Assembly (NCBI GenBank): GCA_005799495.1
Contig: SYGP01000019.1
Coordinates: 1-64,000, forward strand
Reading direction: 5' to 3'
Origin: Planctomycetia bacterium
GTDB lineage: Bacteria; Planctomycetota; Phycisphaerae; Phycisphaerales; SM1A02
DNA length: 64,000 nucleotides
Below, one piece after another: positions 4,689 through 47,275 of the stretch (positions within the stretch are counted from its first letter, which is position 1; each line of letters begins with the position of its first letter). The translations under genes were made by a program, and so were the position numbers. The notes under the pieces are model-generated. The model was not told where the DNA came from, ran no database searches, and saw only the letters and a list, made by a program, of their open reading frames with translations.

Positions 4689-4844
4689 GGGGAGTTCCAA
4701 TAGGGGTGAAGGGATAGCGGCACTGCCCCAATTCCCCCGACTCCTTCGATGGACACTATGTACCCGCTTTGTGATCGCCGCATTCGCATATTGTTCATTT
4801 TCTGTTCAGGTCGTTGCACTCGACCTGAATTTGGCTTACCTTCC

Positions 4845-25493: not shown

Positions 25494-25572
25494 GACCCAG
25501 TTTGCGCCAAGATTGCCCAACGGGACAGCCGGGCTGCAAGAGAGATCGAAACCGTCAAGTCAAAGGACCAAT

Positions 25573-26165: not shown

Positions 26166-26942
26166 CTACTTCTTGAACTTGCGAGTGGACTTCTTCGCGG
26201 CGGCGTCGGCGGCGGCTTGCGCCTCGGCCTGCTTGCGTTCCTGCTCCGCCTTGCGTTCGGCTTCGACGCGCCGTTCGAGGAGGCGGATCTCCTGCGCGTT
26301 CACCTTCTTGTGCAGTTCATCGGCGATGCGGGTGTGCACCTGGATGATCGGCGTTGTGCCAACGACAAAGACCTTGAGCTTGTCATCATCGCAGTTGTCG
26401 TACTGCCAGCGGTACATGGCCATGGTGCGGGGCTGCCGAAGCGACTGTTCCCAGAGGTACTCCCTGTCGAGTGCCTCACCGCTGAACGCGCTCAGGCGTT
26501 CGAGGACTTGCATCTGCTCGGGGGTGAGGTCGGTCGGCAGCGCGACACCGCTCGCAGCAGCTGCCTTCGCGAGAATGAGCTGGATGGCCGTGTGGTTCGT
26601 GACAATACGGTGGGCGTAATCACGCACCGACTTGGTCTCGCCGTTCTGCTTCACCAACTGACCGAGCGCGAGCTCCATCAGCACATCGGCCATCGCCAGT
26701 TCGGCAAATCTGGTTGCAGCGATCTCCGCGTTGAAGTCAGGCGCCTTCGGACGAGGCTCCGGGAACGGATTGCCGTTCTCGTCAAGCAGCGGCTTGGGTT
26801 CGATCGATGCCGGTTCGGCAGCGGCATCGCCTGCGGCAGCTGGAGCGCTTGGCGCATCGGACTGGGCCTGTGCCGGCGATGAGGTGAGCAGAAATGCGAG
26901 CGCGGATGCGATCAGTATGAGGGATGGAGCGATGGGTTGCAT
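26166..26942 (-). CDS. Exported DUF4142-family protein
   Basis: 258 residues: signal peptide ending PAQAQS, a Pro/Ala linker, then a DUF4142 ferritin-like helical domain (AMADVLMELALGQLVKQN, DYAHRIVTNHTAIQLILAKA, LSAFSGEALDREYLWEQ, TTPIIQVHTRIADELHKK) and a highly charged Lys/Glu/Ala C-terminal helix. DUF4142 proteins are periplasmic, with a possible stress or metal role that is unproven. The gene lies 12 bases downstream of the TonB-dependent receptor gene on the same strand, so it may belong to that transport operon. Confidence 0.82.
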   Translation of the reverse strand: MQPIAPSLILIASALAFLLTSSPAQAQSDAPSAPAAAGDAAAEPASIEPKPLLDENGNPFPEPRPKAPDFNAEIAATRFAELAMADVLMELALGQLVKQNGETKSVRDYAHRIVTNHTAIQLILAKAAAASGVALPTDLTPEQMQVLERLSAFSGEALDREYLWEQSLRQPRTMAMYRWQYDNCDDDKLKVFVVGTTPIIQVHTRIADELHKKVNAQEIRLLERRVEAERKAEQERKQAEAQAAADAAAKKSTRKFKK

Positions 26943-26953
26943 GGTGGAGTCCG

Positions 26954-29900
26954 TCAGAAGATCAATTGCCAGGAGAGTCCGAATGTCAGGTCGATGCCTG
27001 CCGTATAGGTGGAGTTGACGGCCGTCTGCCCGTCGAAACTCTCGAACTGCGTTTCACGAATCGGATTGGTCAGGTTCTTCGCTGCGAAACTGCATGCGAA
27101 ACCATAGATGAGCCGCTGCTGCAGCGTGAAGTTGAGTGTTCCGTAGGGAAGTTGGTAGATGGATGGCACAAGATCTCCGGGCACTGGAATCGGGAAGCCC
27201 GACGATTCGGTCGATGCACCAGAGACCAACGACTTCCCTTGGTAGTTGTAGAAGATGCCGACCTGAGTACCCGTCTGCTCATAGTCGTAGGTCACATTGA
27301 CATTGAACAGGTAGTCGGGAGTTGCGGTCATGGGCAGCGAAGAGACGTCGACGCCATACGCGCGGAAGGCCGCCTGATCAGCCTCTGGCAACTGCACCTG
27401 GGAGTTCATGTAGGTGAAGTTGGCACCCGTCGCCAAGCCCTTGAAGTCCTCGCCGAGGAGCGGCTCGGCGGTCACCCGACCTTCAATCTCAACACCAAAC
27501 AGCGTTGCATTGTCGAAGTTCGCGGGCGTCGTGTAACTGAAGCTGGTCGCGAATCGCTGCACATACTGGATGGGGTCGTAGATCTGCTTGTAGAACACCG
27601 ACCCCGAGATGAGCCACTCTTCCTCGGGGGTCCAGTCGAGACGCAGGTCGTAGTTGTTGAGGGAACTCATCTGAAGCGCCGGATTTCCGATGAAGAGCGG
27701 TCCACCGACATACTCGTATTGCAACACGGGCACGAGTTCGAAGAAGTTTGGGCGCGCGAGCGTCTGCGCGAACGCAGTTCGCAGCACCAAATCGTCACGA
27801 ATGTTCCAGTTCAAGCCGATCATCGGCAGGATGTTCGCCTGATTGATGTTGGCGTTGTACTCACTGGACGGATAATCGCGGATGAAGCCAGGGAGCCCAC
27901 CACCAGGGGGCAACCACAATGCGTCCGCATCCGGCACAACCGTGGTGGTCATGTCGGTCGTTTCATAGCGCACGCCCGTCACCAGGTTCATCGTCTCCGT
28001 GAAGGGCAAATCGATCATCCCGTAGCCAGCTGCGATGAGTTGGCTGCCGTTGTATGAAATGTCGGCGTTGCTCTGAAGAATCGGCTGACCCTGTGATGGA
28101 AACACTTGGCTCCACGGATCCGTCCACGGGGCCTGGTAGGAAGTCGTGCCCGGCGGGTTCGTGTCGTTGTAAAAGGTGTCTTGGGTGTACGTTCGCGACA
28201 GGGAGTCGGCGAACATGCCCACCTTGATGTACCCCTCACGGTCGTTCCACTGAAGGAACGGCAACTTGATGTTTGTCGCGCCTTGGATGCTCTGCTCTTC
28301 GTTGAAGTAGTTGATGTGCTGGACGAAGCCTGCGCTGCTGAACGGGACGAGATCGTCCGTGTATGTCCACTCCTCGGGGAGAACAAATCCGGGTGCGATC
28401 CCGCTGGCAGGCTTCCAGATGGATGCGAACTGAGTTTGGTCCGGCTGATTTTCGCTCGCCTTGCTCAGCGCGAATCGCCAGTCGATCTTTGGGGCGCCCA
28501 AGGCAATCGGTTCGGGCAGTTCCTCTGCCTCGTTGGGTCCGAGGAATCCAAGCGTGTGCTCTCCGTTGAGAATCAGCGCTTCGGTGATGACCTGTGAATA
28601 ATCGAGCGTCTCGAGTCGCTGCCACGGAGCTTCAAAGGCTTCGGCGCCTTCGTTGCCTGGACCGAAGGGATCATTCACGTCGTAGTTGGGGAAGAAATAG
28701 TCCTTGCCACGCTGGTCGATGAGCAGAACTGCCTGGCTCTCGGACAATTGCGTATAGATGAACTTTGCGCCGATCTTGTGCTGCTCGGTCTCGAGCCCAA
28801 AGGCCCCCATACCACCCCACTGGATCGACTGCGTTCCCTGCGTCACATCGTAGAGCTGCGTGATGTACTGCCCGCCTGGGACGGGGTTTGCCCCCTCCGA
28901 TGTCTGCGGGACCAACGACGTTCCTGGCGTCGCTTGCAAGTACTGATTCAACTGTCCGTTGTCGAAGTACGAGGCGCCTGCGTCGTAGAAGAAGTTGCCG
29001 AAACCACCAACCTTGAGGTCGTCGTCCACTTGCCACGAGTCGCCCGCGGCGACAGACCACTTGTAAATCGGCGGCGCATTGCCCGTCGTGGTCCCGGTGG
29101 GATTGTTCGGCCACGGCTGGCCGATCAAGTCGGGCTGCGTTTGCAGCACATCATTGCCACCCCAAAAGTCCAGTTGCCCGCCGGGATAGGTCAGGAACGA
29201 CCCATTCTTGACTTGAGAGTTGATCCCGTACTGCGCACGGATTTGGAAGATCCCTTCGTCAGGGATGTCCTTCAGCACGACATTCACGCCGCCTCCCGAT
29301 GCCTCGCCCTGCAGATCGGGGGTGAAACTCTTGCTGATTTGGATGCTCTGGATCACCGCCGCGGGGAACTGATCGAGCTGCACCGCGCGCTTGCCAGGCG
29401 TTGAGACAGGCAATCGCACACTGTCCAGCAGCACGCTCACATAGCGATCGGGAAGTCCGCGCACGACGGCGTACTTGCCCTCCTGCAGTGTTGCGCCCGG
29501 CACCAACAGCAGTGCTGCGGCAGCATCACCAGCGCCCGACCGTGAAATCGTGTCGACGCCGACAACATCGAGCAACTGCGGGCTGTCGAGTCGCAGCGTG
29601 AACTCCATCGGCTGCACGATCACGATCGGCACGATCTCGGGCGGCGTGATGACCTGGATCGGCGCCGCCTCTTGCTGCTCCACATTGATGTCTTGGACAA
29701 CGACCTCGTCGAGATCCTCGAACTCGCCGGCCATCGTTGCGTCGACATCCGTCAACTGACCATTGACAACCCCCACATTCGGCCGCACCTCACGGACATA
29801 GCCGTCCTTGGTGAACACAAGCGTGTAGGTACCGGTGGTGACATTCGGAATCGTGAACGAACCCGTTTCGGATGTGATCACCCGCGCCCGCGTTCCAAGG

Positions 29901-30055
29901 ATGCTGACCGCCGCACCCACCACGGGAACGCCGAACTCCTTGTCCGTGACGGTTCCGCGCACGGTGCCGCCGACAGCAGCCTGCCCGAGGGCAGGAGCGG
30001 CGGCCAGCAGCAGCACAATGACGAAGGCGACAACAAATCGCCCGTGCATCACCAT
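26954..30055 (-). CDS. TonB-dependent outer-membrane receptor with N-terminal carboxypeptidase-regulatory-like domain
   Basis: 1033 residues. Signal peptide to ALGQA, then a CarboxypepD_reg-like beta-sandwich (GTVRGTVTDKEFGVPVVGAA through about residue 105), a plug domain with GKYAVVRGLPDRYVSVLLD and an SKSFTPDLQGEASGGGVNV segment, and a 22-strand-type barrel rich in Tyr/Asn/Gln, ending in a terminal Phe (LTFGLSWQLIF). The domain layout is that of Oar-like and SusC-like receptors. The ATG at 30055 overlaps the end of the TPR lipoprotein gene, so the two are coupled. With the dedicated TonB system at 33233-38421 it should import a large substrate or, as shown for Oar in Myxococcus, help a protein leave the cell. 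Confidence 0.88.
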   Translation of the reverse strand: MVMHGRFVVAFVIVLLLAAAPALGQAAVGGTVRGTVTDKEFGVPVVGAAVSILGTRARVITSETGSFTIPNVTTGTYTLVFTKDGYVREVRPNVGVVNGQLTDVDATMAGEFEDLDEVVVQDINVEQQEAAPIQVITPPEIVPIVIVQPMEFTLRLDSPQLLDVVGVDTISRSGAGDAAAALLLVPGATLQEGKYAVVRGLPDRYVSVLLDSVRLPVSTPGKRAVQLDQFPAAVIQSIQISKSFTPDLQGEASGGGVNVVLKDIPDEGIFQIRAQYGINSQVKNGSFLTYPGGQLDFWGGNDVLQTQPDLIGQPWPNNPTGTTTGNAPPIYKWSVAAGDSWQVDDDLKVGGFGNFFYDAGASYFDNGQLNQYLQATPGTSLVPQTSEGANPVPGGQYITQLYDVTQGTQSIQWGGMGAFGLETEQHKIGAKFIYTQLSESQAVLLIDQRGKDYFFPNYDVNDPFGPGNEGAEAFEAPWQRLETLDYSQVITEALILNGEHTLGFLGPNEAEELPEPIALGAPKIDWRFALSKASENQPDQTQFASIWKPASGIAPGFVLPEEWTYTDDLVPFSSAGFVQHINYFNEEQSIQGATNIKLPFLQWNDREGYIKVGMFADSLSRTYTQDTFYNDTNPPGTTSYQAPWTDPWSQVFPSQGQPILQSNADISYNGSQLIAAGYGMIDLPFTETMNLVTGVRYETTDMTTTVVPDADALWLPPGGGLPGFIRDYPSSEYNANINQANILPMIGLNWNIRDDLVLRTAFAQTLARPNFFELVPVLQYEYVGGPLFIGNPALQMSSLNNYDLRLDWTPEEEWLISGSVFYKQIYDPIQYVQRFATSFSYTTPANFDNATLFGVEIEGRVTAEPLLGEDFKGLATGANFTYMNSQVQLPEADQAAFRAYGVDVSSLPMTATPDYLFNVNVTYDYEQTGTQVGIFYNYQGKSLVSGASTESSGFPIPVPGDLVPSIYQLPYGTLNFTLQQRLIYGFACSFAAKNLTNPIRETQFESFDGQTAVNSTYTAGIDLTFGLSWQLIF

Positions 30056-31251
30056 GGAGGTTGGAGCCCCCCCCTCATCTGCGCCATCTTGCTGCGCATC
30101 CCCTCCGTCGGCTCGATTCCCTGACGGGCCATTGCAAGCATGATCATGCAAAGATCCTCGGCGCGGGGACGAGCGTTCGGATTGATGCTGCCCGCCTCCA
30201 AAGCGAGTGCCCACACGCGCAGAGCGTTCTCAGTGTCGCCAACCTGTGCCAAGGCTGCAGCCAGCGGACAGAGGTAATCGGCGCGCTCAATGTCCACCAT
30301 CGACTTGGGATCGCGCTCGTACGCGGCAACCATGTCGAGCAGGAGTTCGCGCGCTCGCACTCCATCCCCGCGGCGCTCGAAGGCGAGTGCAAGATTTCGA
30401 CCGATCGGTCCGCTGGTGTCGGGGAGGAAATCCGATGTCCTCAGCAGGTCGCGCGCACGCACAACTTCCGCCATCGCCTCGTCGGTGCGCCCCTGCGCAT
30501 CAAGTTCATCGGAGAGGCGAATGGATGCGTCGATTCGATACTCGATCGGCAACCCCGGCATGGCGGCGCGGATCGCCTTCTCCGCGCGATCGCAGCGGCT
30601 CGCATCACCACGAACTCGCTTCAGGACGGCGAAGTAGCCGCCAACTCCCGAACGCACGACATCGAGGTTGCCAGTCTTGATCGCTCGATCGAAGGCATCG
30701 CACTGACGATCCAACTCTTCGATCGTCACGCGCGTGGCGATTTCCGCTTCGACCCGCCCCGTGAGTTCCTGTGGAACGCGCCCTGCAAACTGCCGCGCCC
30801 TTTCGAGTTGGCCCATCTTTGCAAATGCGACAGCAATCTCCGTGAGAATGCGCTCTTGCGTGGCACCCTCTGTGGACGCTGCAAGATCGATGGCGCGAAT
30901 CACACACTGATCTGCGCGCGCCCTCTCTCCCGCCTCGGCGAACGCCTGCGCGAGGATCGCAAGCGACTCCGCGCGCCGTCCATCCTCGATCCTGTCCGCG
31001 TAACGCAGCGCAGCATCAAATGCCTGCAGTTCAATGGCGGTGAGAACAACATCTCGCTGCAACCGCGACTTCACGCGCGCATGCGACTTGCCGTGCGGCG
31101 ATGAAGCCACATCCATTGCCTGATCGAGCAGTGCCGATGAATCGTTCGCCTTTCCCTTCGGCGTTGCCTGACAGCCCGCCCCCGCGACGGCGAATCCGAC
31201 GAATGCGGCAGCGAGCACAAAGACCGAACGGGAGATTTGTGGGTGTCTCAT
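30049..31251 (-). CDS. TPR-repeat lipoprotein partner of the TonB-dependent receptor
   Basis: 400 residues. Lipobox AGAGC after a signal peptide, then TPR-like helical pairs throughout (VLTAIELQAFDAALRYADRI, ILAQAFAEAGERARADQCVI, EIAVAFAKMGQLERARQFAG). It would sit at the outer membrane or periplasm as a protein-interaction scaffold. It ends 4 codons into the receptor gene and starts just after a strong terminator hairpin, so it begins the receptor transcription unit. Its precise role is unknown; SusD-like capture or receptor assembly are both possible. Confidence 0.72.
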   Translation of the reverse strand: MRHPQISRSVFVLAAAFVGFAVAGAGCQATPKGKANDSSALLDQAMDVASSPHGKSHARVKSRLQRDVVLTAIELQAFDAALRYADRIEDGRRAESLAILAQAFAEAGERARADQCVIRAIDLAASTEGATQERILTEIAVAFAKMGQLERARQFAGRVPQELTGRVEAEIATRVTIEELDRQCDAFDRAIKTGNLDVVRSGVGGYFAVLKRVRGDASRCDRAEKAIRAAMPGLPIEYRIDASIRLSDELDAQGRTDEAMAEVVRARDLLRTSDFLPDTSGPIGRNLALAFERRGDGVRARELLLDMVAAYERDPKSMVDIERADYLCPLAAALAQVGDTENALRVWALALEAGSINPNARPRAEDLCMIMLAMARQGIEPTEGMRSKMAQMRGGLQPPW

Positions 31252-31263
31252 TGGAAGCCGAAA

Positions 31264-31300
31264 GGCGCTTGGCGGGGAGCGATCTCCACCGCCAAGCGCC
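31264..31300 (-). terminator. Strong rho-independent terminator after the beta-helix exoprotein gene
   Basis: GGCGCTTGGCGG (31264-31275) pairs perfectly with CCGCCAAGCGCC (31289-31300), and the loop contains an inner GGAG/CTCC stem with a bulged A, giving about 16 paired bases. On the minus strand it is followed by TTTC. It lies about 30 bases past the stop of the 31333 gene and separates that gene from the receptor unit. Confidence 0.75.
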
Positions 31301-31332
31301 GAGAATGAAGGAAGCGTCTGTCTTGCGGTTAC

Positions 31333-33036
31333 TTAGGAGCAGTTGCCCCACGCGCCGAGGAGGATCGTGAGATCTGACCCACCAACTGATCCTGAGAAGT
31401 CGAGGTCAGCTGCGCCCGGTGTTCCCCAAGAACCCAGGAGAATGGTGAGGTCGCTACCGCCAACACTGCCGTTCGAATCCAGATCGGCTGGGCACGGAGC
31501 AGCGCAACCGCTAGGAGTCGTCACATATCCGTACTGCGATGCCGCACTCCAACCGCACAGCCAGTTGTCGCTTGGACCGAAGGCGCCACGATAAGACACT
31601 GGCACATAGAACCCATTTGGTGGAGGAGCAGTCACAGCCGATACTGCATCGTTGGCAGCGCGAGGATCCAGTCCGATGACGGGCTGGATGGCGACGCCGG
31701 TCAGAACCTGCGTTGGACCGCGGGTGATCGATGTGATCGGCGAAGCCGTTGCGATCACATTGTTGTTGCTGGCAGCGAAGACGCCAACGGAGTTCGCTGT
31801 CGTGTACGCAGCGGAATTGACGTTGTTGAAGAACACGGTGTCAGTGATCTGGCTCAGCTTGCCTCCATCTTGGCTCGTGTAAGCCTCAGCGGGGCTTGGG
31901 TTCGAGGTGAAGGGGTTCACCGTGGAGTACACGTTGAAATCCGTCGTCCAGCACGCGTTAAAGGTCAGGGTGCCGTTGTGGCCGTAGCCGGTCTGTCCGT
32001 CCGTTGCCTCGCCGTCGGTGTTGTCGTTTCGGACAACTGCCTCACCAGCATCCATGATGATGCTGTTGTTGACCTGGAGACGGGCTCCGTCACGGAACTT
32101 GATGGCGCGCTTCACGCTGAGCGGCTGTCCGATGAGCGTCATGTTGTAGAGCGACACAGTCGAAACAGGCTGGGCGTCAGACTTCGCAGCGCCGTCAATC
32201 TCGATCATCGAGTCGCACACGCCTGAGCCCGACGCTGCGTTCTTGGAGTAGCCCTGCACGATCAGTCCGAACTGACCGCGACCGCGCCATCCGTGGTCCA
32301 AATCGAACGAATCGTCACCGATGTTCCAGATCGAGAAGTATCGGAGGTCGACCTTGCCGCCCCAGATCTCGATGCCGTCATCGACGTTGTTCATGATCTC
32401 GACGTGATCGATCTGGGTCTGCTGACCAATACCGCCCAGCGAGAGTCCGTTGAGCTCGTTGGTGAGTCCCACCACGAGACCGCCGTAGCGGAACGAGGTG
32501 TAGCGGAGCGAGCCGCTGTCGTCCTGATCATCGCCGCCGCCGTAGCGGGTGCGTTCGTCAGAGCCGCCAGCCGGCGTCAAGCCTTCCATCAGGGAGTAGT
32601 TGCCCGCGCTTGGAGCAGCCGTGTTGGTCGATGGGGCGCCATTGCCGTACTTGCCCACGAAACCGCGACCCATGATCGTCAGGTTGCCCCACTCGTTGCA
32701 GCTTGCGCGCCACACACCGCGTGGAGCCGCGGGGGTCCAGGTGTCGTAGTCGGCCTTGGAGGTGAAGATGATCGGGTTTTCCGCAGTTCCCTCGCAATCG
32801 ATGCGAGCTCCGCGGCAAACCGCCAGCGAACCACCGGCGCTGCTGGCGATGATGGTGCCTGGCTCGATGGTGATGGTGGCACCGGCGAGCACGAACACCT
32901 GTCCTTGCAGGTTGTACGTGTTGTTGGCGGTCCAGGTGACCGACGTGGTGATGTCACCTGAAACGATGACCTCGGCAGCGTTGGCCTGAACAGCCACTGC
33001 TGCGACGAGACATGAGAGCAAGCACTTCGACTTCAT
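31333..33036 (-). CDS. Secreted right-handed beta-helix-like protein with two dockerin-like repeats
   Basis: 567 residues. Signal peptide (KSKCLLSCLVAAVAVQANA), then a beta-helix-type body (GDITTSVTWTANNTYNLQGQ, IEPGTIIASSAGGSLAVCRG, IDHVEIMNNVDDGIEIWGG, FSIWNIGDDSFDLDHG). The C-terminal tag is duplicated (CPADLDSNGSVGGSDLTILL, then ADLDFSGSVGGSDLTILLGA). The start at 33036 has AGGAG at normal spacing; an ATG three codons upstream is too close to it. It is encoded between the TonB/ExbBD/TPR genes and the receptor genes and is the obvious candidate client or substrate-binding partner of that system. No catalytic residues are identified. Confidence 0.75.
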   Translation of the reverse strand: MKSKCLLSCLVAAVAVQANAAEVIVSGDITTSVTWTANNTYNLQGQVFVLAGATITIEPGTIIASSAGGSLAVCRGARIDCEGTAENPIIFTSKADYDTWTPAAPRGVWRASCNEWGNLTIMGRGFVGKYGNGAPSTNTAAPSAGNYSLMEGLTPAGGSDERTRYGGGDDQDDSGSLRYTSFRYGGLVVGLTNELNGLSLGGIGQQTQIDHVEIMNNVDDGIEIWGGKVDLRYFSIWNIGDDSFDLDHGWRGRGQFGLIVQGYSKNAASGSGVCDSMIEIDGAAKSDAQPVSTVSLYNMTLIGQPLSVKRAIKFRDGARLQVNNSIIMDAGEAVVRNDNTDGEATDGQTGYGHNGTLTFNACWTTDFNVYSTVNPFTSNPSPAEAYTSQDGGKLSQITDTVFFNNVNSAAYTTANSVGVFAASNNNVIATASPITSITRGPTQVLTGVAIQPVIGLDPRAANDAVSAVTAPPPNGFYVPVSYRGAFGPSDNWLCGWSAASQYGYVTTPSGCAAPCPADLDSNGSVGGSDLTILLGSWGTPGAADLDFSGSVGGSDLTILLGAWGNCS

Positions 33037-33126
33037 GGGGAACATTCTCCTGATATTGACTTTGAACAAATGACTTGAGAGATCACACACAAGCGGAGAG
33101 CGATACCGATCGCGCCCCACACACGC

Positions 33127-33139
33127 CGACAGTCTGTCG
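33127..33139. promoter_or_regulatory. Short palindrome upstream of the beta-helix exoprotein gene
   Basis: CGACAG-T-CTGTCG is a perfect 13-base palindrome in the 196-base gap between the exoprotein gene (start 33036) and the upstream TPR gene. Its position in the promoter region fits an operator, but no consensus is known to me. Confidence 0.3.
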
Positions 33140-33232
33140 TTCAAACTTTTAGGTCTTCCAAGTCCAGTGTGAATGTCGCGCTTGAATGGTGTTCAGAAAT
33201 GGCTTGCGCGCAAGTGCCGATGCTTGCGGCCC

Positions 33233-34693
33233 TTACTTTCGCCCCTTGGAGGCGCGCTCGACCTGCTCGATGTATCTGGCCACATCCTCACGCGGGCGAA
33301 GCGACTGGGCATCACGAAGCAGTGGCAGCGCTTCGCCAAACCTGCCCTGCCCCACATACACCTGCGCCATCTTGACCTTGGCATTCGCGGCGAACGAGTC
33401 GATTCGCGCGGCCCGTTCGTAGTAGAGAATCGCCTGATCCGGGCGTCCCCCACGGTTGTGATACTGACCGAGAAGCATGAGCGCCTCTCCATCGAGGGGG
33501 TCAAGTTCGATCACTTCCTCGAGTACGCGGGCAGTTTCTTCATCCCCCGCCCCGCCAGCCATCGACAGGCGCGCCTCGAGTTTGAGCAACTTGCGCTTGT
33601 CGTTGTCGCTGATCGACGCGGAGGCGGATTCCTTCACTTTCCCGATCAGACTGCGCGCCTGATCGAGTCCGCCGCGTGCGGCGAGCCCCTCCGTGCTTCG
33701 AATGATGCGCGCGGATGACTGCGCTGGGTCCTTCTGGAGTGCGCGCTGGTAGGCGTTGAGCGCCAGGTCAAGCAGCGCTTCGGACACGTAGATGTCCCCA
33801 AGCGTGAACAAGCTGTCCACCGACGACTTGCCGATCGCATCAAGCGCCTCGAGGTTGACCGCTGCCTTCTGCGGCTCCTTGAGCCCGAGGTAGGTGTGCG
33901 CCTGCAGCAGCCAAAAATCCGCCTTTTCGGGATAGGTCTGGATCAGCACATCGAGGAGGCTTGCGGCATCCTCAAACTTGCCTTGCTTGAACACTGCGCG
34001 CGTCAGTCCAAGCCGCCACTCCACATTTGTCGGCTGCAGCAGCAACGCATTTCGGTACGCAGCCTCGGCTGGCTGGTAATCCTGCTTCTGCGAATGGCAG
34101 TAGCCAAGCAATCCGTAGGAGTAAGGATCCGCTCCACCGAGTTCGATCATCTTGTTGAATGCATTGATCGCATCGTCGAGTTGTGCCTTTCGAACGCAGA
34201 TCAGACCAATGCTGCGGTAGGCGCGGCGGAAGTTCGGATACTTCTCGACCGCACGGCGGTAGTTCACCAGCGCATCATCCGCGCGCTCCTGTTGGTACTG
34301 AATGCCGCCGAGGGTCAGGTCAAAGACGGCCGAGGTCTCCTCCCGAATGGAATCCCGCAGCAGCGCCTCCGCTGCGGGCAGCTCATCGGGCATCAACTGG
34401 CGGACCAGTTCAAGCAGTGCCATGTCATCCGATGAGATGCGCGGTTCCACATCAGGATTGACGCCGTACCCAGCCACGAATGACTTCTGGAAGGTGGGGT
34501 CGTCCCAGACGGAGCGCAGGTCGGCGGTCCCAACCTGCATCGATGGGCTCGGCGCCTTCCAAACGCCTCCAGGACCATTGTCCTTCTCCTGATCGGCACG
34601 GAGCGGCGCCGCGGCATGCGCGGAAACAGCTGACAATGCAAGTGAAACAAGCGCCGCGATTACGAAACGGGATGGACGCGTGGGATTGGTCAT
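33233..34693 (-). CDS. TPR-repeat periplasmic protein of the TonB system
   Basis: 486 residues with a signal peptide (VIAALVSLALSAVSAHAA) and at least eight TPR-like repeats (FDLTLGGIQYQQERADDALV, AYRSIGLICVRKAQLDDAIN, ALMLLGQYHNRGGRPDQAIL, VYVGQGRFGEALPLLRDA). In Vibrio-type TonB systems a TPR protein is encoded next to TonB and takes part in energy transfer. The same order is seen here. Start at 34693 overlaps the TonB stop (ATGA). The protein ends in a basic tail (RASKGRK). Confidence 0.8.
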   Translation of the reverse strand: MTNPTRPSRFVIAALVSLALSAVSAHAAAPLRADQEKDNGPGGVWKAPSPSMQVGTADLRSVWDDPTFQKSFVAGYGVNPDVEPRISSDDMALLELVRQLMPDELPAAEALLRDSIREETSAVFDLTLGGIQYQQERADDALVNYRRAVEKYPNFRRAYRSIGLICVRKAQLDDAINAFNKMIELGGADPYSYGLLGYCHSQKQDYQPAEAAYRNALLLQPTNVEWRLGLTRAVFKQGKFEDAASLLDVLIQTYPEKADFWLLQAHTYLGLKEPQKAAVNLEALDAIGKSSVDSLFTLGDIYVSEALLDLALNAYQRALQKDPAQSSARIIRSTEGLAARGGLDQARSLIGKVKESASASISDNDKRKLLKLEARLSMAGGAGDEETARVLEEVIELDPLDGEALMLLGQYHNRGGRPDQAILYYERAARIDSFAANAKVKMAQVYVGQGRFGEALPLLRDAQSLRPREDVARYIEQVERASKGRK

Positions 34694-35406
34694 TTTGGCT
34701 GGAACCTGAAGGGGACACGCATGCGGCAACTGACGCGCTTGCCGCCCTTGATGGCTGGCTCGAACTTCCACTGCCGCACCGCTTCGAGCGCGGGCTTCTC
34801 GAACTCGGGGTGCGTTGCCTTCTCGACGCGAGGGTTGACAACGCGCCCGGTTTCGTCGACGACGAAGATGACGGTTACGACTCCTTCAGCCTTGCGGGAG
34901 CGCATCTCGGATGGATAGGTCGCAGCAACCTGCATGAGTGCGCGCGGCCGCTGGTCGATCTCCGACATGCTGAACGCGCCGGAAAACTCCTCTTCCTCGG
35001 TCGGTCCGCCCTTTCCCGTACCGCCGATCCTTCCGCCCGAAGCCAACGATGCGCCACCTCCGCCAAAATCGCCCGCGCCACCCGCCCCGCCGAGCGCTGC
35101 CTCGAGCGCGCTCAGGCTCGCCGCATCGAGCGCTGGCGCATCGTCGCTCGTGGAAACCTGATCGACCGCGCTGGAAAGAGCCTGATTGGCATCGGGTGGC
35201 TGCTCCTCCTGTTCCTTGATCTCTTCAGGCTTCTGCTCTTCCTGCTTCTCTTCTTCCTTGTCCTGATTCACATCCTCGGCGACGATCTCGACATCGCGCT
35301 TGCTCGTTGCCTGTTCTTCATGCAAGAACAGCAGCCCACCGAAAAGAAGGACCGCCGCATGAATCACGACCGCCGCGATGAAGAAAACGACTCCAGAGGG
35401 CGACAT
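34690..35406 (-). CDS. tonB: TonB energy-transducing protein
   Basis: 238 residues. N-terminal membrane helix (VVFFIAAVVIHAAVLLFGGL), an acidic/Lys linker (DKEEEKQEEQKPEEIKEQEE), a Gly-rich segment, and a C-terminal TonB domain (YPSEMRSRKAEGVVTVIFVV, then RVEKATHPEFEKPALEAVRQ and WKFEPA). It couples the proton motive force gathered by ExbB/ExbD to outer-membrane receptors. Translation starts at the ATG at 35406, overlapping the ExbD stop. The highly acidic rather than proline-rich linker is unusual for TonB but common in planctomycetes and Vibrio TonB3-like systems. Confidence 0.9.
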   Translation of the reverse strand: MSPSGVVFFIAAVVIHAAVLLFGGLLFLHEEQATSKRDVEIVAEDVNQDKEEEKQEEQKPEEIKEQEEQPPDANQALSSAVDQVSTSDDAPALDAASLSALEAALGGAGGAGDFGGGGASLASGGRIGGTGKGGPTEEEEFSGAFSMSEIDQRPRALMQVAATYPSEMRSRKAEGVVTVIFVVDETGRVVNPRVEKATHPEFEKPALEAVRQWKFEPAIKGGKRVSCRMRVPFRFQPK

Positions 35407-35837
35407 CACTTCTTGTCCGTGCTGATGCCGACCTTGGCGATCCCGATCTTCCGTACTTCGTCGAGGACTCCCACGACAAACTTGAAGTCTGCCGCACCAT
35501 CGCTGTTGATGATGACCTTCGGGTCCTTCGCGGTGAGTTTGTAGGTCTGCAGTTTGAGCGGCAGTTGTGAGATCAGGATCTTGTCCTTGTTGAAGAAGAT
35601 CTCCCCCTTTTCATTCACGCTCAGCGTGACCGCTTTGTCCATCTCCTGCTGCTCACCGAGCGACTGCGCCGTGGATGCGCCAGGCAGCGCAACCTGCACT
35701 CCTTGGTTCTTGGACATGCTCAGCGAAACCATGATGAAAGTCGCGAGCAAGAAGAAGATGATGTCGATCAGGGGAATGATCTCGATGCGCGCAGACTTCT
35801 TCTTGCCGCGCCGATTGCCACCGCCACCGCCCGCCAT
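35406..35837 (-). CDS. exbD: ExbD/TolR-family proton-channel subunit
   Basis: 143 residues. Basic N-terminus (GGNRRGKKKSARIEIIP), a single membrane helix with the conserved Asp in PLIDIIFFLLATFIMV, and a periplasmic domain ending VVGVLDEVRKIGIAKVGIST. This is the standard ExbD layout and length. It starts 2 bases after the long ExbB gene and overlaps tonB, so the three are co-translated. Confidence 0.92.
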   Translation of the reverse strand: MAGGGGGNRRGKKKSARIEIIPLIDIIFFLLATFIMVSLSMSKNQGVQVALPGASTAQSLGEQQEMDKAVTLSVNEKGEIFFNKDKILISQLPLKLQTYKLTAKDPKVIINSDGAADFKFVVGVLDEVRKIGIAKVGISTDKK

Positions 35838-35839
35838 CG

Positions 35840-37339
35840 CTAGGCTCCTGCCCCGACGGGTTCGGCGCCCACGCTTTGTGCGTACGACTCCCGCGCCTCA
35901 GCCGCGGACGGCACCGCCGGACGCCCCTCGATCAGCAGCTTCAACTGCTCGCCGCAAGCGAGGAGTTCGCCCTCCATCGTCTCGATGCGGCTGTTCAAGT
36001 AGTTGAATGGAATGAGGCAGACGATCGCGATGATGAGTCCGAAGGCCGTCGCGATGAGCGCTTCAGCGATGCCACCCGTGATCGCGCCTGGCGAACTCAG
36101 ATCGCCGCCGATGACAGCGAACGATCCCATCATGCCTGTCACGGTGCCGAGCAGTCCGAGCAGCGGCGCGAGCGTAATGACCGTGTCGAGCACGGGGATG
36201 CCGCGCCGATACCGCTTGAGCGTGCGTGTCTCCGCGTAGGCGAGCGCGTGCCCGAGCGACTGATCGCGGTGCTCCAGCGCATATCCCAGCGTGGTGACGA
36301 TCGCATCCTTCGACTTCTGGGCGACCTCGAGCGCCGCGTCGAGATTGCCCTTGCCGACCTCAACAAAGAAGTTGGCAACGGCCTTCGAACTTCGCTTGCG
36401 CTGTTCGTTCAGCAGGAAGATGACTCGCTCGAGCGCGACCGCGAGCGCGATGATCGATGCGAAGAGCATCGGCCACATGATCGGACCACCCTTGATGAAG
36501 ATGTGAACGATGCTCGCCTTCTGCACGAGCGCCTTCAGTGCGCCACCACGCGAAGGGTCAAGCGGAAGCGTTCCCTCGCCCGCGGCGACGAGCGGTCGAA
36601 CAACATCCGCGAGACCTCCATCCAGTGTCCGAATCAGCGGATTGGCGGAACCCGCCTGCGGAACGGCGATGCCCGCATCGCCCGAATCAGCGCTGAAGAG
36701 TGAGATGGGGCCGATCATCGCGAACTGCCCGTTCATCACCGTGCCGAGCATGTCGACGCCCGTGCCTTGAAAGCGATGCCCGCCGACCACATCGAAGAGT
36801 CGCTTGAGCGTGAGGTTGACGAACAGTGTCTGCGTCGAAAAGCGCTCGCTCGGGGTCAGTGTCTTGTTCTCGAGAGCGCTCTTGGTCGCCTCGATGGGCT
36901 GCGCAAACAACTGCACTTCGCCGACATTGATCTTGGTCTCGAAGGTCCGCGCGTACTCGTCGAGCAGGCTGCTCATGTACGACAGTTCATCCTGCCGCGC
37001 TTTCATCTCCGCCTGGAGCGTGCCGATTTCGAGCGCGCCGGCGTCGACAAGGCGCTGCACTCGATCGCCCTCCTTCCGAAGTTCGATCACGCTCTCTTCC
37101 AGACCAGTGAGTTCCTGCGCCATCGGCAACTTCTCGCCAGCGATCCGCGCACGCATGCCGTTGAGCTCTTCGATGCTCTTGGCGAGTTCGCCATCGGCGG
37201 CGGCACCTGCGCTCTTCATGGCTCGACCAGACTCCTCGGACGACTCGGAGGCTTGCTGCGCCGCCGCGACTTGCGGCAGCACGAAGGCCGACGCGGCAAG
37301 GACGAGAGCAAGGGCGACGATGGATGCGGTGCGGTTCAT
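35840..37339 (-). CDS. MotA/TolQ/ExbB-family protein with long N-terminal periplasmic extension (TtpC-like)
   Basis: 499 residues, twice the usual ExbB length. Signal peptide (VALALVLAASAFVLPQVAAA), a periplasmic coiled coil (RARIAGEKLPMAQELTGLEE, DRVQRLVDAGALEIGTLQAE) and a beta-rich domain to about residue 280. Then comes the ExbB core: GGPIMWPMLFASIIALAVAL, a cytoplasmic loop, TLAPLLGLLGTVTGMMGSFA and GGIAEALIATAFGLIIAI. This fits TtpC of Vibrio TonB2/TonB3 systems. Those systems carry a second, short ExbB, which is absent here, so this protein must serve as the only ExbB unless one is encoded elsewhere. It overlaps the DUF3450 gene (ATGA). Confidence 0.87.
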   Translation of the reverse strand: MNRTASIVALALVLAASAFVLPQVAAAQQASESSEESGRAMKSAGAAADGELAKSIEELNGMRARIAGEKLPMAQELTGLEESVIELRKEGDRVQRLVDAGALEIGTLQAEMKARQDELSYMSSLLDEYARTFETKINVGEVQLFAQPIEATKSALENKTLTPSERFSTQTLFVNLTLKRLFDVVGGHRFQGTGVDMLGTVMNGQFAMIGPISLFSADSGDAGIAVPQAGSANPLIRTLDGGLADVVRPLVAAGEGTLPLDPSRGGALKALVQKASIVHIFIKGGPIMWPMLFASIIALAVALERVIFLLNEQRKRSSKAVANFFVEVGKGNLDAALEVAQKSKDAIVTTLGYALEHRDQSLGHALAYAETRTLKRYRRGIPVLDTVITLAPLLGLLGTVTGMMGSFAVIGGDLSSPGAITGGIAEALIATAFGLIIAIVCLIPFNYLNSRIETMEGELLACGEQLKLLIEGRPAVPSAAEARESYAQSVGAEPVGAGA

Positions 37340-38421
37340 TGGATGGTGATCGGAAGTGGGACGAAAGCGGGCGGATGCTTTCCCTGAATGATCTCGAGTG
37401 CGGTCAGGATGGCGGCTGCCTGATCGTTCGCCGCGCGCCACTGCCAGCCGTTTTCCGAAGGCTTGCCGATGCCCGCCTCGCCGCGCGGGCTCAGGAAGTA
37501 TGCCTGCGCGAGCCCGACATAAATGACCTGCACTTCGCTCGAAGACCCATCGGACAGTTGACGGATCTCGTATGCAATGGTTATCTCGCTGTTTGCCTTG
37601 TTCAGTTCGTTGAGGATGCCGAGAACGTTCTGGAATCGCTCTGCGGTGGAAATGCGGGTCTTTTCAGGGTCGGCTGGAATGCGCTGCAGCAGCGGTGTCA
37701 GCCGCGTCGCAACACCTTCGGGCGCCAACTTTGCCAACTTGCGAACTTGCGACTCCATTTCTGTCACCGCACCCGACAACTGCGCGCCCACTTCCTTCAA
37801 CTGCTCGTTCTGCGCCACGAGATCGTCGCGCTTCTTGTGCGACTCGGCCACGGCGGCCTCTGACTGCGTGATCCGCTCGCGCAGTTGGCTGACCTCCTTC
37901 CCCACCAGTTCGATGCGTCCCTGCAGGATTTCCTTGCCCTGCTGCCAGTCATTGCGCTCTTTCGAAATGATCTGCTGCGTTTCAATCCACTTCGAAAGGG
38001 TCAATCGAGTTTCTTCCAGTGAAGGGGGTGCCTTTGCCGGTGCTGACGGACTCGCAGGTTGCGCAGTCTGCGCTGGCGGCGCGTCAGCAGAGGCGGGCTC
38101 ACCCGATGACTGACTCGCGGGCTCGGGCGATTGCGTTGTTGCTGGATTGGTCGGCGGCGGCGTCGTAGGAGCGGCCGCGGGAGCCGACTTGGTAGCTGGC
38201 GCGGTTGGCGACTTCTTGGCGGCGGGGGCGATCGGGGCAGCAGCCTTCGACTTCGGAGGCTGCTGAGCCTGCGCGAAAGCGCTCGCGGTGAGCGACAGCA
38301 TTGTCCCCCACACAGGGATGACCAGTGCTATCGATGCGCAAAGCGGGCGCGCGTTTCCAAGAAACGCGCGAACCCGCAAACGAGATTGGGTTCGTCGTGC
38401 GGTCAATTTTTTTCCGATCAA
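37336..38421 (-). CDS. DUF3450-like coiled-coil protein of the TonB cluster
   Basis: 361 residues. An N-terminal export signal, a low-complexity Pro/Ala/Ser/Thr/Gln stretch (about residues 50-135), a long coiled coil (SKWIETQQIISKERNDWQQG, RITQSEAAVAESHKKRDDLV, QLSGAVTEMESQVRKLAKLA) and a C-terminal domain (AYEIRQLSDGSSSEVQVIYV, GLAQAYFLSPRGEAGIGKPS) matching the DUF3450 pattern. DUF3450 genes accompany TtpC-type TonB systems. It heads the operon. The start is uncertain: TTG at 38421 is used, but TTG or other codons further in are possible. Confidence 0.8.
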   Translation of the reverse strand: MIGKKLTARRTQSRLRVRAFLGNARPLCASIALVIPVWGTMLSLTASAFAQAQQPPKSKAAAPIAPAAKKSPTAPATKSAPAAAPTTPPPTNPATTQSPEPASQSSGEPASADAPPAQTAQPASPSAPAKAPPSLEETRLTLSKWIETQQIISKERNDWQQGKEILQGRIELVGKEVSQLRERITQSEAAVAESHKKRDDLVAQNEQLKEVGAQLSGAVTEMESQVRKLAKLAPEGVATRLTPLLQRIPADPEKTRISTAERFQNVLGILNELNKANSEITIAYEIRQLSDGSSSEVQVIYVGLAQAYFLSPRGEAGIGKPSENGWQWRAANDQAAAILTALEIIQGKHPPAFVPLPITIQ

Positions 38422-38676
38422 GCGTCTGTGCGTTGCCTTTATGAAGACCCAAAAAGGTATGAGCCGAGTGGTACCCGTTTGTATGGTTGGCGTTCATATT
38501 GTGTTCATCCTGCGGTGCGCAGAGCGGCGCAAAGCACCCGCAGACCGATTGCGATCTCCGGCGGGGCGCGCGCGCTGCACGGTTTCCCGAGCCACCCAGT
38601 TGGGACTCGTTGTCGCGACGCCCGCCACCGTCAGTGGAAAGTCACGACACCCGATGCGATCGAAGGCGACGCTGCG

Positions 38677-39080
38677 TGACGGGGTCGCTCTCATCGGTCC
38701 GCCCGTTATGCGAGTTTGCGGATAGTAGCGGTCCGTGTCCTGCGCTTCTGCGCCGCAGCGCGGGCGAGCGGAGCGAGCCTGCGCGCAGGCGCAGGAGCGC
38801 ACCGTGCCGCGAAGGCCGCCGGGGTCCGCTTGCCCAGCGCACGCTGGATGCGCCGGTGGTTGTAGAACGTCCTCCAGCGGTGCAGGGTCACTTCGCTTAC
38901 GCCAAGGGAACGCGCAACCTCAGCGATGGCCACTCGCTTGGCCAGCGCCTCATCAGCCTGCCTGAGCTTGGCCACGACCTCCTCGGGACGGTGCCGCTTC
39001 CTGTTCATCGGACGCTTCATCAGAGACTCCTCTCGGCCCTGTGGGCCGCGTAAGTCTCTCATAAGGCCTGGACCTGTTCA
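38677..39080 (-). mobile_element. Internally deleted IS3-family element
   Basis: A 404-base segment with imperfect 10-base ends TGAACAGGTC and TGACGGGGTC, starting TG and ending CA as in IS3 elements, flanked on both sides by GCG (38674-38676 and 39081-39083), a possible 3-base target duplication. Its only frame joins the first 45 or so residues of an OrfA helix-turn-helix to the last 25 or so of an OrfB integrase, so roughly 0.9 kb of the element is missing. It cannot move by itself. The 255 bases between it and the DUF3450 gene contain nothing I can name. Confidence 0.6.
38706..39020 (-). pseudogene. IS3-family transposase remnant (OrfA head joined to OrfB tail)
   Basis: 104 residues from an ATG at 39020 with AGGAG 6 bases upstream. 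The head KRHRPEEVVAKLRQADEALA and IAEVARSLGVSEVTLHRWR is the OrfA DNA-binding part of IS3 elements. It changes directly into FYNHRRIQRALGKRTPAAFA, which is the far C-terminal end of the OrfB DDE integrase; the whole catalytic core with its DDE residues is gone. The join is in frame, so a short DNA-binding protein could still be made, and then an unrelated Arg/Ala-rich read-out follows to the stop. Confidence 0.8.
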
Positions 39081-39290
39081 GCGCACCCCTGTCACGGCGG
39101 CGCGATGGCGCTCTTGAAGGCCATCCTGTTTGATGCCCGCGTTCCGCTCTCTGATGCGGCACCAGGCGTTGATGATCGACTCGCTGCGGTGCTCGACGCG
39201 GCCGTGTCGCTCGATCCATCGCGGCGCCCAACATGCGCCCGCGCCTTCGCTGAATCACTGCGGCCCTTCTTGGGTCTGCAGGTCGGCTGA
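39081..39290 (+). pseudogene. Probable C-terminal fragment of a serine/threonine protein kinase
   Basis: About 69 codons follow directly after the IS end, with an ATG at 39105. The segment GVDDRLAAVLDAAVSLDPSRRP and ARAFAESLRPFLG looks like the last helices of the C-lobe of bacterial Ser/Thr kinases (the usual text is DPxxRPxSAxAFAExLRPFL). No catalytic loop is present, so it is a tail only. The rest was probably lost on the IS side. The frame upstream across the IS position is also open but shows no kinase motifs. The assignment rests on a short match. Confidence 0.4.
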
Positions 39291-39678: not shown

Positions 39679-41382
39679 TCACTCCCACGGCCATCCAACA
39701 ACTGATTCGGGTCTTGGCATTGGGTCGGGAAGGCTGACTTGAGATGCACCGAGCACCGTTCCCGTTGCAAACGCGAGATCAATCAGGGATATCTCGTACT
39801 GAGCCGATGCGTCGACTTCGCGCGCCTGCGCATCTGCAAGGCGCGCCGCGGCATCGAGCACTTCGACACTCGTCCGCAGTCCCACATCAAACTGCCGCTG
39901 TTCCGCCAGCAGAGCACGCTCCGCGAATGTCACCTCGAGCCGGGTGGCAACCACGCGCCGCCAAGCGCCGGCGACGGTGTCGACCACATCGTGAACTTCC
40001 TGCGTGATGGCCTGACGACGACTCTCCTTTGTCGCGAGGCGCTGAAGCCTTCGCGCAATGGCTTGGCTGAGCCGCGCCTTCCTCGCCTCGTTCCCAAGAG
40101 GAATGCTGCCACTGACACTGACCACGAATGGATCCGAATCGCCGAGGCTGCTGTAAGCCTGCCCCAGACTCGCAGCATCTCCGAGATACTGATACTGATA
40201 GTCCAGCGTGAACGAGGGAAGCGCTTCATTCCGAGCCAATGCAACGCGCTCCGCATCTACGGCAAGTTGAAGTTCAAGCTCAAGCAGATCCATGCGGTTG
40301 TTCAATGCCAACGCGGTGAGAGCCGCAGGATCCAGATTCAGTCCAAACGGCTCACTCGCCGTGATCGGATCGAGCATGGTGGGCCCGTCGACTGGATACT
40401 GCGGCGAATTCATGAAACGCTTCAAGGACCGAGCACGTATTCGCAGCACGTTGTCCGCCACGATGATCTGCTCGATTGTGCGACCAACACCGCTTTGTGC
40501 TCGAAGCAGTTCAATCGGCGCCGCATCGCCTTGATCGACCCTCCTCCTTGCGCGCGCCATCTGCTCCTCAGCAAGGCGATGCTGGCGTTCTCGAACCTCC
40601 AGTATGCGCCGCGCGGTGAAGAGTTGCCAATAGGACTTCTCGGCATTCGCAAGGATTCGAATCATCTCGAGGGTGGTTCGAGCGTCAATCTGCCGCGCCT
40701 CCATCTGTGCGACCCGAATGCTCGCCGTATTCGCTCGAATCCCAAAGCCTCGGAGCAGTGGAAGAGACAGATTGACGCTCAGCCCTGCTTCCCAAGGTTC
40801 TGGCGTCAACACACTATCCGCAGCGATGGCCAGCGTGCTGACATTGATCGTGCCACCAGTTGCAAGAGGGAAGTCGACACCGATCTTCGCGGAGTCGGAG
40901 GCGGTCGGGAGCCCGCTCTCCAGGTTCTCAACCAGCGTGCTGTCGTTGCGGGTGTAGTTGCCACGCAACACTGCCTCAAACTTGGCCGCCTCCGCATCGA
41001 GTGCGGTCACGCCGAGGGTCGGGTTGTAGCGCTGAACAGAGAGATCGAGGTTGTACTCCAGCGACCACTGACGAACATCGGCGAGCGACACAGTTGCACG
41101 TACTGGGTGGGTGGGTGAGCCGAAGCCAACTTCCACGGCATCCTGTACCGCATCCGCAAGCGTGACCGGTGGCTCCTGTGACTCTGCCTTCGGATCGAGG
41201 AGAGCAGGTCGACGCAGGCGCTCCAATTCCATCGGCGGTAGTGCGGTGTCCTCGAGATAATCGCGACCATTGCAGCCCTGAAGAAGGCAGAGCGTCCATG
41301 GCACCACTCCCCACATCACGGTGCGTTGCTGCTGGAATGCTCGAGCCTTCCCAACGGCGCGAGGGCAGTCATCGAGAGCCAT
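39679..41382 (-). CDS. TolC-family outer-membrane factor of a type I secretion cassette
   Basis: 567 residues with a lipoprotein-like start (LCLLQGCNG) and two outer membrane efflux repeats of long helices (RPALLDPKAE, LANAEKSYWQLFTARRILEV, RQHRLAEEQMARARRRVDQG, SRRQAITQEVHDVVDTVAGA). It would form the outer-membrane duct. ATG 41382 lies 5 bases past the adaptor gene's stop, so it is the last gene of an ABC-adaptor-TolC operon; an ATG at 41316 just before the signal is possible. Conserved phrases match efflux factors paired with HlyD secretion systems rather than metal pumps. Confidence 0.82.
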   Translation of the reverse strand: MALDDCPRAVGKARAFQQQRTVMWGVVPWTLCLLQGCNGRDYLEDTALPPMELERLRRPALLDPKAESQEPPVTLADAVQDAVEVGFGSPTHPVRATVSLADVRQWSLEYNLDLSVQRYNPTLGVTALDAEAAKFEAVLRGNYTRNDSTLVENLESGLPTASDSAKIGVDFPLATGGTINVSTLAIAADSVLTPEPWEAGLSVNLSLPLLRGFGIRANTASIRVAQMEARQIDARTTLEMIRILANAEKSYWQLFTARRILEVRERQHRLAEEQMARARRRVDQGDAAPIELLRAQSGVGRTIEQIIVADNVLRIRARSLKRFMNSPQYPVDGPTMLDPITASEPFGLNLDPAALTALALNNRMDLLELELQLAVDAERVALARNEALPSFTLDYQYQYLGDAASLGQAYSSLGDSDPFVVSVSGSIPLGNEARKARLSQAIARRLQRLATKESRRQAITQEVHDVVDTVAGAWRRVVATRLEVTFAERALLAEQRQFDVGLRTSVEVLDAAARLADAQAREVDASAQYEISLIDLAFATGTVLGASQVSLPDPMPRPESVVGWPWE

Positions 41383-41387
41383 GCGAT

Positions 41388-47160: not shown

Positions 47161-47275
47161 TGGGGCGCTTTCTCCAAAAGAGTTGTGGGGGGAAAGTGCC
47201 ACCAAATCGCACAGGTTGCCCGCGCGATCGGTGAAGGGCGCATGAATTGACTACGAAGAACGCGTTCGCGCTGGA

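Follow-up and report, generated by a model that had tools for sequence, protein, structure and literature searches.

In the usual view, passive porins let phosphate through the outer membrane of bacteria. Pairs of a receptor and a surface partner are known from BtuB–BtuG, SusCD, TbpA–TbpB, and HasR–HasA, and Oar has a layout with a carboxypeptidase-regulatory (CarboxypepD_reg) domain. Three published systems resemble the locus described below, and what we say of them is drawn from the available portions of the papers. The Caulobacter protein ElpS (CC0170) is a lipoprotein of the cell surface that is made under phosphate starvation, and CC0171 is the TonB-dependent receptor encoded next to it (PMC2996285). 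According to the same source, ElpS reaches the surface without the type II secretion system (T2SS) by an unexplained route, its release requires the T2SS, and relatives of cc0170 range from Shewanella to Bacteroides. The T2SS belongs to the Caulobacter PhoB regulon (PMC11208175). The TonB2 system of Vibrio, ttpB2-ttpC2-exbB2-exbD2-tonB2-ttpD2, serves siderophores and has a Fur box (PMC6957404). In Myxococcus xanthus, Oar and its Ton system are required for secretion of PopC (PMC6434023). Here, we analyze a cluster in the first 64,000 nucleotides (the window) of contig SYGP01000019.1 (assembly GCA_005799495.1), from a planctomycete of the SM1A02 lineage, that encodes a TonB engine, a predicted secreted beta-helix protein (BH), and a TonB-dependent receptor (REC).

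We consider it fairly probable that this cassette takes up a phosphorus source across the outer membrane by TonB-driven transport, that phosphate shortage switches it on, and that BH serves REC as a dedicated surface partner. The proposal builds on the genes and their order, on their co-inheritance, on the predicted importer-type fold of REC and beta-helix fold of BH, and on an 11-bp element in two distant lineages. The phosphorus part is suggested by the Pho-type elements together with the published link between ElpS and phosphate starvation, and from the phoB, phoR, and pstS genes that adjoin the whole module in Alteromonas. In the mechanism we envisage, low phosphate would cause a PhoB-type regulator to bind the element and turn the cassette on. 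BH would be secreted and kept at the surface, in this organism by a dockerin-like tail and in others by a lipid anchor or different ends, and would bind or process a phosphorus-containing ligand next to REC. REC would then import the ligand, pulled by TonB, which would be energized by a TtpC–ExbD motor with TtpB and a tetratricopeptide repeat (TPR) protein.

A preliminary description of this stretch listed genes for DUF3450, a long ExbB, ExbD, TonB, a TPR protein, a secreted beta-helix protein, a TPR lipoprotein, and a receptor, all on one strand. This observation is confirmed: every gene is present on the minus strand between 38421 and 26954, as judged from the list of open reading frames (ORFs) and Pfam. 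REC has Pfam matches to CarboxypepD_reg (E = 8.5e-16), Plug (4e-9), and the barrel (1.7e-24). The cluster was also rightly called self-contained, because it holds the only Plug, the only barrel, and the only DUF3450 match in a genome that is 97.8% complete; REC is the only TonB receptor recognized there. The TPR gene between BH and REC is likewise real, but the designation lipoprotein fares less well, since a lipobox-like motif is found in only 31 of 103 homologous ORFs (regular expression, redundant set).

The co-occurrence check proposed at that stage was run, and relatives' loci keep the block together rather than scattering it over random neighborhoods. Eighteen relatives' loci were chosen because they hold BH and were searched for the other genes by tblastn. 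All of them contain TtpB and TtpC, and 17 also contain REC and the second TPR protein; in the exception, L053, BH is a tandem protein and REC lies just upstream of the same engine in its genome. A scan of GTDB genomes with a BH profile returned at least 582 relatives among at least 593 candidates, of which 79 loci were kept (Planctomycetota and kin, Omnitrophota, and Verrucomicrobia/Pontiellaceae, partly from the same genomes as the 18 loci). The second TPR protein is present in 74 of these, REC in 67, and an engine gene in 67, and in the 18 kept loci without REC or engine, the labelled genes all run to within ~200 bases of a contig end. Every one of the 39 loci of at least 20 kb combines BH with the second TPR protein, REC, and engine genes. 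The full set comprises BH, TPR, REC, TtpB, TtpC, ExbB, ExbD, TonB, and TPR, in varying order. A separate ExbB is labelled in 44 of the 79 loci; the window's genus, which places the engine first, is without one, and none is labelled in L059–L065 and L067.

Counts over whole genomes agree. With strong matches defined as E ≤ 1e-78 for BH and E ≤ 1e-180 for REC, and with the count confined to these two genes, 292 Planctomycetota genomes include 47 with BH, 46 with REC, and 46 with both. The one genome with BH but no strong REC, G285, has its BH near a contig edge. Weaker matches (E from 1e-41 to 1e-54) were left out, namely BH in G116, G117, and G159 and REC in G072, G097, G117, G145, G159, and G294. 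In the 45 pairs that lie on one contig, BH and REC are 485–7254 bp apart (median 1983), with 42 on one strand; the remaining pair has its two genes on different contigs. Within the genus, BH, REC, DUF3450, and Plug are all present in 10 of 19 genomes and all missing from the other nine, one of which (G016) has a 61-residue scrap of REC. The block thus co-occurs far beyond chance. Outside the module, recurrent neighbors form 11 clusters, which by eye include ExbD copies missed by the small model, response regulators, an ABC ATPase, a Tat-signal protein, and some probable shadow ORFs. Individual loci have neighbors of their own. In L093 (12–2484), the BH module is preceded by an ACR3 arsenite pump, an arsenate reductase, and a regulator that resembles PhoB but scores below cut-off, arsenate being a phosphate mimic; in L111 (6–2246), two divergent genes upstream of a verrucomicrobial BH gene resemble those for an exopolyphosphatase and a PhoB regulator, each below its cut-off.

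The association extends beyond the phylum. In PLSDB, BH relatives with 26–35% identity occur in 21 records, and the Alteromonas receptor, used as a query, matched 17 records at E ≤ 1e-40, all within these 21. Of the Pseudoalteromonas and Alteromonas records inspected, ten come with a gene table and one does not. Engine, BH, and receptor adjoin in all ten (the DUF3450 gene is missing from the table of L234), and the order is that of the window in nine; Alteromonas puts BH and receptor first. In these ten records ExbB is encoded separately, and BH and receptor have no second TPR protein between them. On the Alteromonas plasmid, phoB, phoR, and pstS, all over their NCBIfam cut-offs (TIGR02154, NF008235, and TIGR02136), precede the whole module. 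Records from Indioceanicola and Sphingomonas (L219 and L220) have BH, receptor, and then a T2SS operon, and three Bacteroidota records have the BH–receptor pair alone. A Hymenobacter BH relative (L229, 8854–10287) is annotated "cell shape-determining protein MreB", which is likely a misannotation, and in the Marinobacter plasmid L221, two short carboxypeptidase-regulatory ORFs lie upstream of the BH relative.

A viral scan found 103 BH relatives, of which 80 loci were kept. REC stands beside BH on one strand in 52 of the 80, with a gap of −24 to +2 nt, and BH is alone in 28. Tight pairs of a receptor and a beta-helix lipoprotein-like protein occur on large phage contigs (L182 7650–11101, L189 7428–11107, and L223 5785–9625), and 71 ORFs pooled from five viral contigs include a major head protein, head maturation proteases, endolysins, and thymidylate synthases (PHROGs). 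The 635-kb phage record LR745206 also holds the REC–BH pair; the available part of a published account lists a "TonB-dependent receptor (SusC)" for this phage, with no partner named (PMC9723777). The phage receptor–BH pair is possibly an auxiliary metabolic unit.

Pho boxes are 11-nt direct repeats, with CTGTCAT in E. coli and GTTCACC in Streptomyces (PMC4415409), and in cyanobacteria they take the form of tandem CTTAACCT repeats (PMC1906773). An element of this type precedes TtpB in the window, with two good units, TGAACACAATA and TGAACGCCAAC, and a weak third (p = 0.002 for k = 3 units, matrix from pstS units). All p values were obtained against shuffles that kept base composition only, and because loci within genera are related, counts of elements are not independent. 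Alignment of the upstream regions gave no clear conserved promoter until the 11-bp register was used. In ten loci of the Alteromonadales, the upstream regions of both BH and DUF3450 carry four 11-bp-spaced CTGTCAT-type units (for L234, where the start of DUF3450 is not annotated, it was placed by hand). At k = 4, 19 of these 20 regions reach p ≤ 0.02, compared to 6 of 104 upstreams of other genes in the same loci; the corresponding numbers at k = 2 and k = 3 are 16 and 13 targets and 2 and 4 controls. None of the 10 regions before REC passes, and the region before phoB has p = 0.003. When the spacing was set to 8, 9, 10, 12, 13, or 14 instead of 11, only 0, 1, 1, 0, 0, and 3 of the 20 regions reached p ≤ 0.02, though 11 of 20 pass at lag 14 if p ≤ 0.05 is allowed.

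In the Planctomycetes–Verrucomicrobia–Chlamydiae (PVC) group, a different 11-bp array (TGAACGCAATC, TTCACAGAACG, and similar) stands before TtpB in the window's genus. Of the two lineages with an element before the module, this one also has a similar candidate element before pstS; in G011, the 11-mer TGAACGCAATC precedes both ttpB and pstS. The units were first seen by eye in TtpB upstreams, which include near twins (window/L040 and L041/L047), and a 5-position matrix was then applied to pstS, where 4 of 15 upstreams reach p ≤ 0.02 (k = 3; controls 1/46). A matrix from the pstS units finds all nine TtpB upstreams at p ≤ 0.01 (k = 3; controls 6/107), a result that is partly circular because those units were chosen with the first matrix. 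With a matrix from TtpB only, 7 of 15 pstS upstreams pass (k = 3, p ≤ 0.02) compared to 1 of 42 control windows, although two of the seven sites (L241 and L245) may lie near or in coding starts, and before phoU of the pst operon none of 10 does. Of 96 module heads not used for the matrix, 28 pass at k = 3, compared to 5 among the same number of random windows (Fisher 1.3e-5); the values at k = 2 are 23 and 8. A few of these heads (e.g., L058, L060, L062, L066, and L067) may share the window's genus. The lag control gives 21 of 96 at lag 11 and 1, 8, 4, 4, 3, and 5 at lags 8, 9, 10, 12, 13, and 14, and upstreams of other long ORFs give 13/235 at lag 11, 11/235 at lag 9, and 15/235 at lag 13. 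PhoX was found in 2 of 19 genomes and in none of the 12 in the genus.

Within the window, the best 3-unit site is the one before TtpB, a ranking to which that site itself contributed 2 of the 22 matrix units. The second best lies ~40 nt before 45289–47205 (−), a PhoD-like phosphatase gene (Pfam 5.6e-48) whose product has the same dockerin-like tail as BH, and the uptake proposal is slightly firmer for the element preceding this gene. The third (4808–4776, −) precedes 3930–4700, which by eye encodes a small exported PEP-CTERM-like protein. Ranking by two units gives the site at 4808, then TtpB, an unassigned site at 12571, and the PhoD-like gene. Further dockerin-like tails are found in a beta-propeller protein with a weak MauG match (22782–25520; upstream 3-unit site with p = 0.008), a CBM96 protein (47276–49183), and a peptidyl-arginine deiminase-like protein (59766–62039). 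The upstreams of the latter two genes, of the ABC gene, and of BH do not pass 0.05 for the 3-unit element.

Several observations weigh against the uptake proposal. Tandem repeats are also bound by OmpR-family regulators other than PhoB. The gamma-type Pho box is not enriched in the PVC group (3/106 heads and 2/106 random windows), 8 of the 15 pstS upstreams miss p ≤ 0.02, and the element is weak before the pstS of the window's own genome (p = 0.034 and 0.046). The TtpB-only matrix finds no site before a second PstS-like gene (0/4), a second phoU (0/14), or phoX (0/2), and inspection by eye of the 11 clusters of recurrent neighbors recognized no phosphate gene. The Marinobacter plasmid has a BH relative (L221, 11617–13194) with no annotated receptor beside it. 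Finally, the available portion of the Caulobacter study reports that deletion of cc0171 did not suppress ElpS production and that refolded or immunoprecipitated ElpS had no phosphatase activity (PMC2996285).

BH has no Pfam or NCBIfam model at E ≤ 0.01, a PHROGs search with the window's BH found nothing, and sequence searches against the PDB gave three matches at E = 0.43–0.65 in one case and none in another. It was modelled by AlphaFold (78 sequences) as a right-handed parallel beta-helix with a predicted local distance difference test score (pLDDT) of 90, and the model resembles pectate/alginate lyases, polygalacturonases, and phage tailspikes (Z ~17–21; VIA, best 50 matches). The family also keeps an invariant acid-rich stretch (DDG.E, GDD..D.D). 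Fold and motif would both suit a glycan-binding or glycan-cleaving BH in a cassette of the same architecture whose cargo is not phosphorus but, say, a metal complex or part of a polysaccharide. Siderophores are the cargo of the Vibrio TonB2 engine (PMC6957404), and one Pseudoalteromonas record has a siderophore receptor and a reductase 2–3 kb past REC. However, the fold matches are generic, with ~10% identity, no carbohydrate gene was recognized by eye among the recurrent neighbors (several clusters are without identification), and the Pho-type elements and the ElpS paper (PMC2996285) point to phosphorus. We regard a non-phosphorus cargo as unlikely.

The preliminary description gave weight to a dockerin tag on BH, which we rejected as the key feature because the tail is generic, with 57 further matches in the window genome, and because the duplicated dockerin motif occurs in only 25 of 78 aligned BH proteins (15 by regular expression and 10 by eye), the remainder having other ends. 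The tail model does match the dockerin of a solved cohesin–dockerin entry (2y3n_B; 60 residues, probability 1.00, target TM 0.78, root-mean-square deviation 1.0). Outside the PVC group, regular expressions applied to 17 BH relatives from Proteobacteria, Bacteroidota, and phages found no dockerin repeats but a lipobox-like motif in 15. Only 1 of the 78 aligned PVC-group proteins has such a motif, the window's BH being without one. From its sequence distribution, the dockerin tail appears to be a lineage-specific tag, optional in the BH family. BH shares a duplicated C-terminal motif and the dockerin fold with GC-type dockerin proteins (NF041540), but differs in that it falls below the cut-off of that NCBIfam model, with no match at E ≤ 0.01, and in that its family can do without the tail. 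A single protein of L053 (6923–9988) unites two tandem BH domains and ends in a dockerin-like part.

By analogy with Oar, REC might instead export or display BH, the TonB engine driving BH outward across the outer membrane. Oar and its Ton system are needed for PopC secretion (PMC6434023), ElpS arrives at the Caulobacter surface without the T2SS by an unexplained route (PMC2996285), and BH and REC go together in almost all the genomes counted. However, REC, modelled as a plug-and-barrel receptor (pLDDT 84.8), matches the importers FecA (1kmo, Z 39.3) and BtuB (37.5), as an Oar relative might as well, with BtuB1–BtuG1, TbpA, and HasR also among the structural matches. The CarboxypepD_reg domain is not diagnostic of Oar-like export, since it is absent from the two Proteobacterial partner receptors scanned with Pfam; it is found in the Bacteroidota partner receptor. 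The T2SS genes beside BH relatives in the two Alphaproteobacterial records suggest another exporter, as do GspH-, GspK-, and GspL-like genes (below curated cut-offs), which in L052 (9714–17048) precede BH together with a TIGR02597 protein and a PEP-CTERM-like protein; L055 and L056 resemble L052 upstream of BH (by eye). Most non-PVC BH relatives checked are, moreover, lipoprotein-like, suggesting another route, and we consider export of BH through REC quite improbable. A sensing or surface-adhesion complex of REC and BH, not a transporter, would make use of the N-terminal CarboxypepD_reg domain of the genome's single receptor and of a dockerin-like tail that could attach BH to other surface proteins, but it is very improbable given that engine genes are kept with the pair in 39/39 long loci and that no sigma/anti-sigma pair was recognized by eye among the recurrent neighbors. 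The alternative in the preliminary description that BH is a binding protein for the substrate of the receptor fits best, and its interpretation as a whole is partly supported.

On a broader scale, and more tentatively, we suggest a widespread self-powered TonB phosphorus system made up of receptor, beta-helix partner, and private Ttp-type engine. This would be the sole TonB importer in small planctomycetes, would be under Pho control in distant lineages with different operators, and in large phages would be cut down to the two components of the outer membrane, the REC–BH pair, which the phages would use to feed infected cells. If a dedicated TonB route extends from Proteobacteria to Planctomycetota and is carried by large phages, ideas of how phosphorus is scavenged in water and soil would have to change. 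Proteins that mostly bear the label hypothetical would gain a role, and it would become clear why a small planctomycete maintains a complete TonB engine when it has just one receptor. The REC–BH cassette further makes the unexplained surface delivery of ElpS testable.

Positions of the cluster's genes and associated features in the window.
Feature	Position	Strand	Evidence or remark
Tandem 11-bp element, Pho-box type	38475..38507	-	~55-87 nt before annotated TtpB start
TtpB-like DUF3450 protein	37336..38421	-	PF11932 7.6e-31
TtpC-like long ExbB, N-terminal extension and MotA_ExbB domain	35840..37339	-	PF01618 2.4e-27
ExbD	35406..35837	-	PF02472 1e-27
TonB	34690..35409	-	PF03544 (TonB_C) 5.7e-21
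TPR protein, TtpD-like by position and repeats	33233..34693	-	TPR models; position as ttpD2 in Vibrio
BH, secreted right-handed beta-helix protein (predicted), putative receptor partner	31333..33045	-	
Dockerin-like tail of BH, apparently a lineage-specific tag	31336..31506	-	
Second TPR protein, between BH and REC, part of PVC-type module	30049..31251	-	in 74/79 loci
REC, TonB-dependent receptor: N-terminal CarboxypepD_reg, plug, barrel	26954..30055	-	Pfam and model
DUF4142 protein	26166..26942	-	11 nt after REC

The true starts of four genes are likely to lie downstream of the longest-ORF starts, at ~37339 for TtpC (whose MotA_ExbB match sits in a 533-aa ORF), ~34693 for TPR, ~33045 for BH, and ~30055 for REC. 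With these starts, successive engine genes would adjoin or share a few bases, and so would the second TPR gene and REC, while the spacing would be ~187 nt from TPR to BH and ~81 nt from BH to the second TPR gene. There is no separate ExbB, as TtpC ends at 35840 and ExbD starts at 35837, with no room between. The DUF4142 gene is probably an operon passenger; a homologue lies near REC, on either strand, in 5 of the 18 relatives' loci. About 200 nt upstream of the cluster's element lies an IS3-type transposase-like remnant with its middle missing (38706–39258, −; by eye), and TolC-type, HlyD-type, and ABC transporter genes, probably an export system (39679–44778, −; Pfam), are found directly upstream of the cluster.

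No description of the cassette as one unit was recognized in the literature searched, which covered few subscription journals, but its parts can be compared with what the available portions of the earlier papers describe. Like ElpS and CC0171 (PMC2996285), the window has a putative surface protein beside a TonB-dependent receptor and a probable link to phosphate, here in the form of Pho-type elements. The arrangement of the pair in Indioceanicola and Sphingomonas is that of cc0170-cc0171-gspC..N in Caulobacter, and BH is homologous to the proteins in the syntenic place of ElpS, which stand in for it in this comparison (L220, hhalign E = 1.3e-34; L219, hidden Markov model 6.2e-80). REC, next to BH in the place of CC0171, is homologous to the receptors of L220 and L217 (3.8e-34 and 9.6e-51). 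Unlike ElpS, the window's BH has a dockerin-like tail in place of a lipobox; no T2SS gene was recognized among the neighbors scanned on either side (a subset of the ORFs); and the pair is accompanied by the TtpB-TtpC-ExbD-TonB-TPR engine and an extra TPR protein.

The engine itself follows the Vibrio TonB2 system (PMC6957404) in its order of DUF3450, long ExbB, ExbD, and TonB, with TPR last, but the window's genus is without a separate ExbB, its engine is linked to one receptor, and a Pho-type element takes the place of the Fur box. With Oar, REC shares a dedicated Ton system (PMC6434023) and the domain layout by which the two were likened, whereas the conserved partner in the window is BH and not a protease. 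The cassette also resembles BtuB–BtuG, SusCD, TbpA–TbpB, and HasR–HasA as a probable importer with a putative ligand-capturing surface partner, but its partner is a predicted beta-helix, and REC scores far below the SusC/RagA model (31.2 bits against an NCBIfam cut-off of 368.25). The ElpS/CC0171 pair with its phosphate starvation response and the Vibrio TonB2 engine are already published; new here, along with the sites before pstS and the PhoD-like gene, are the 11-bp Pho-box-type elements before the module in Alteromonadales and, with other units, in the window's genus.

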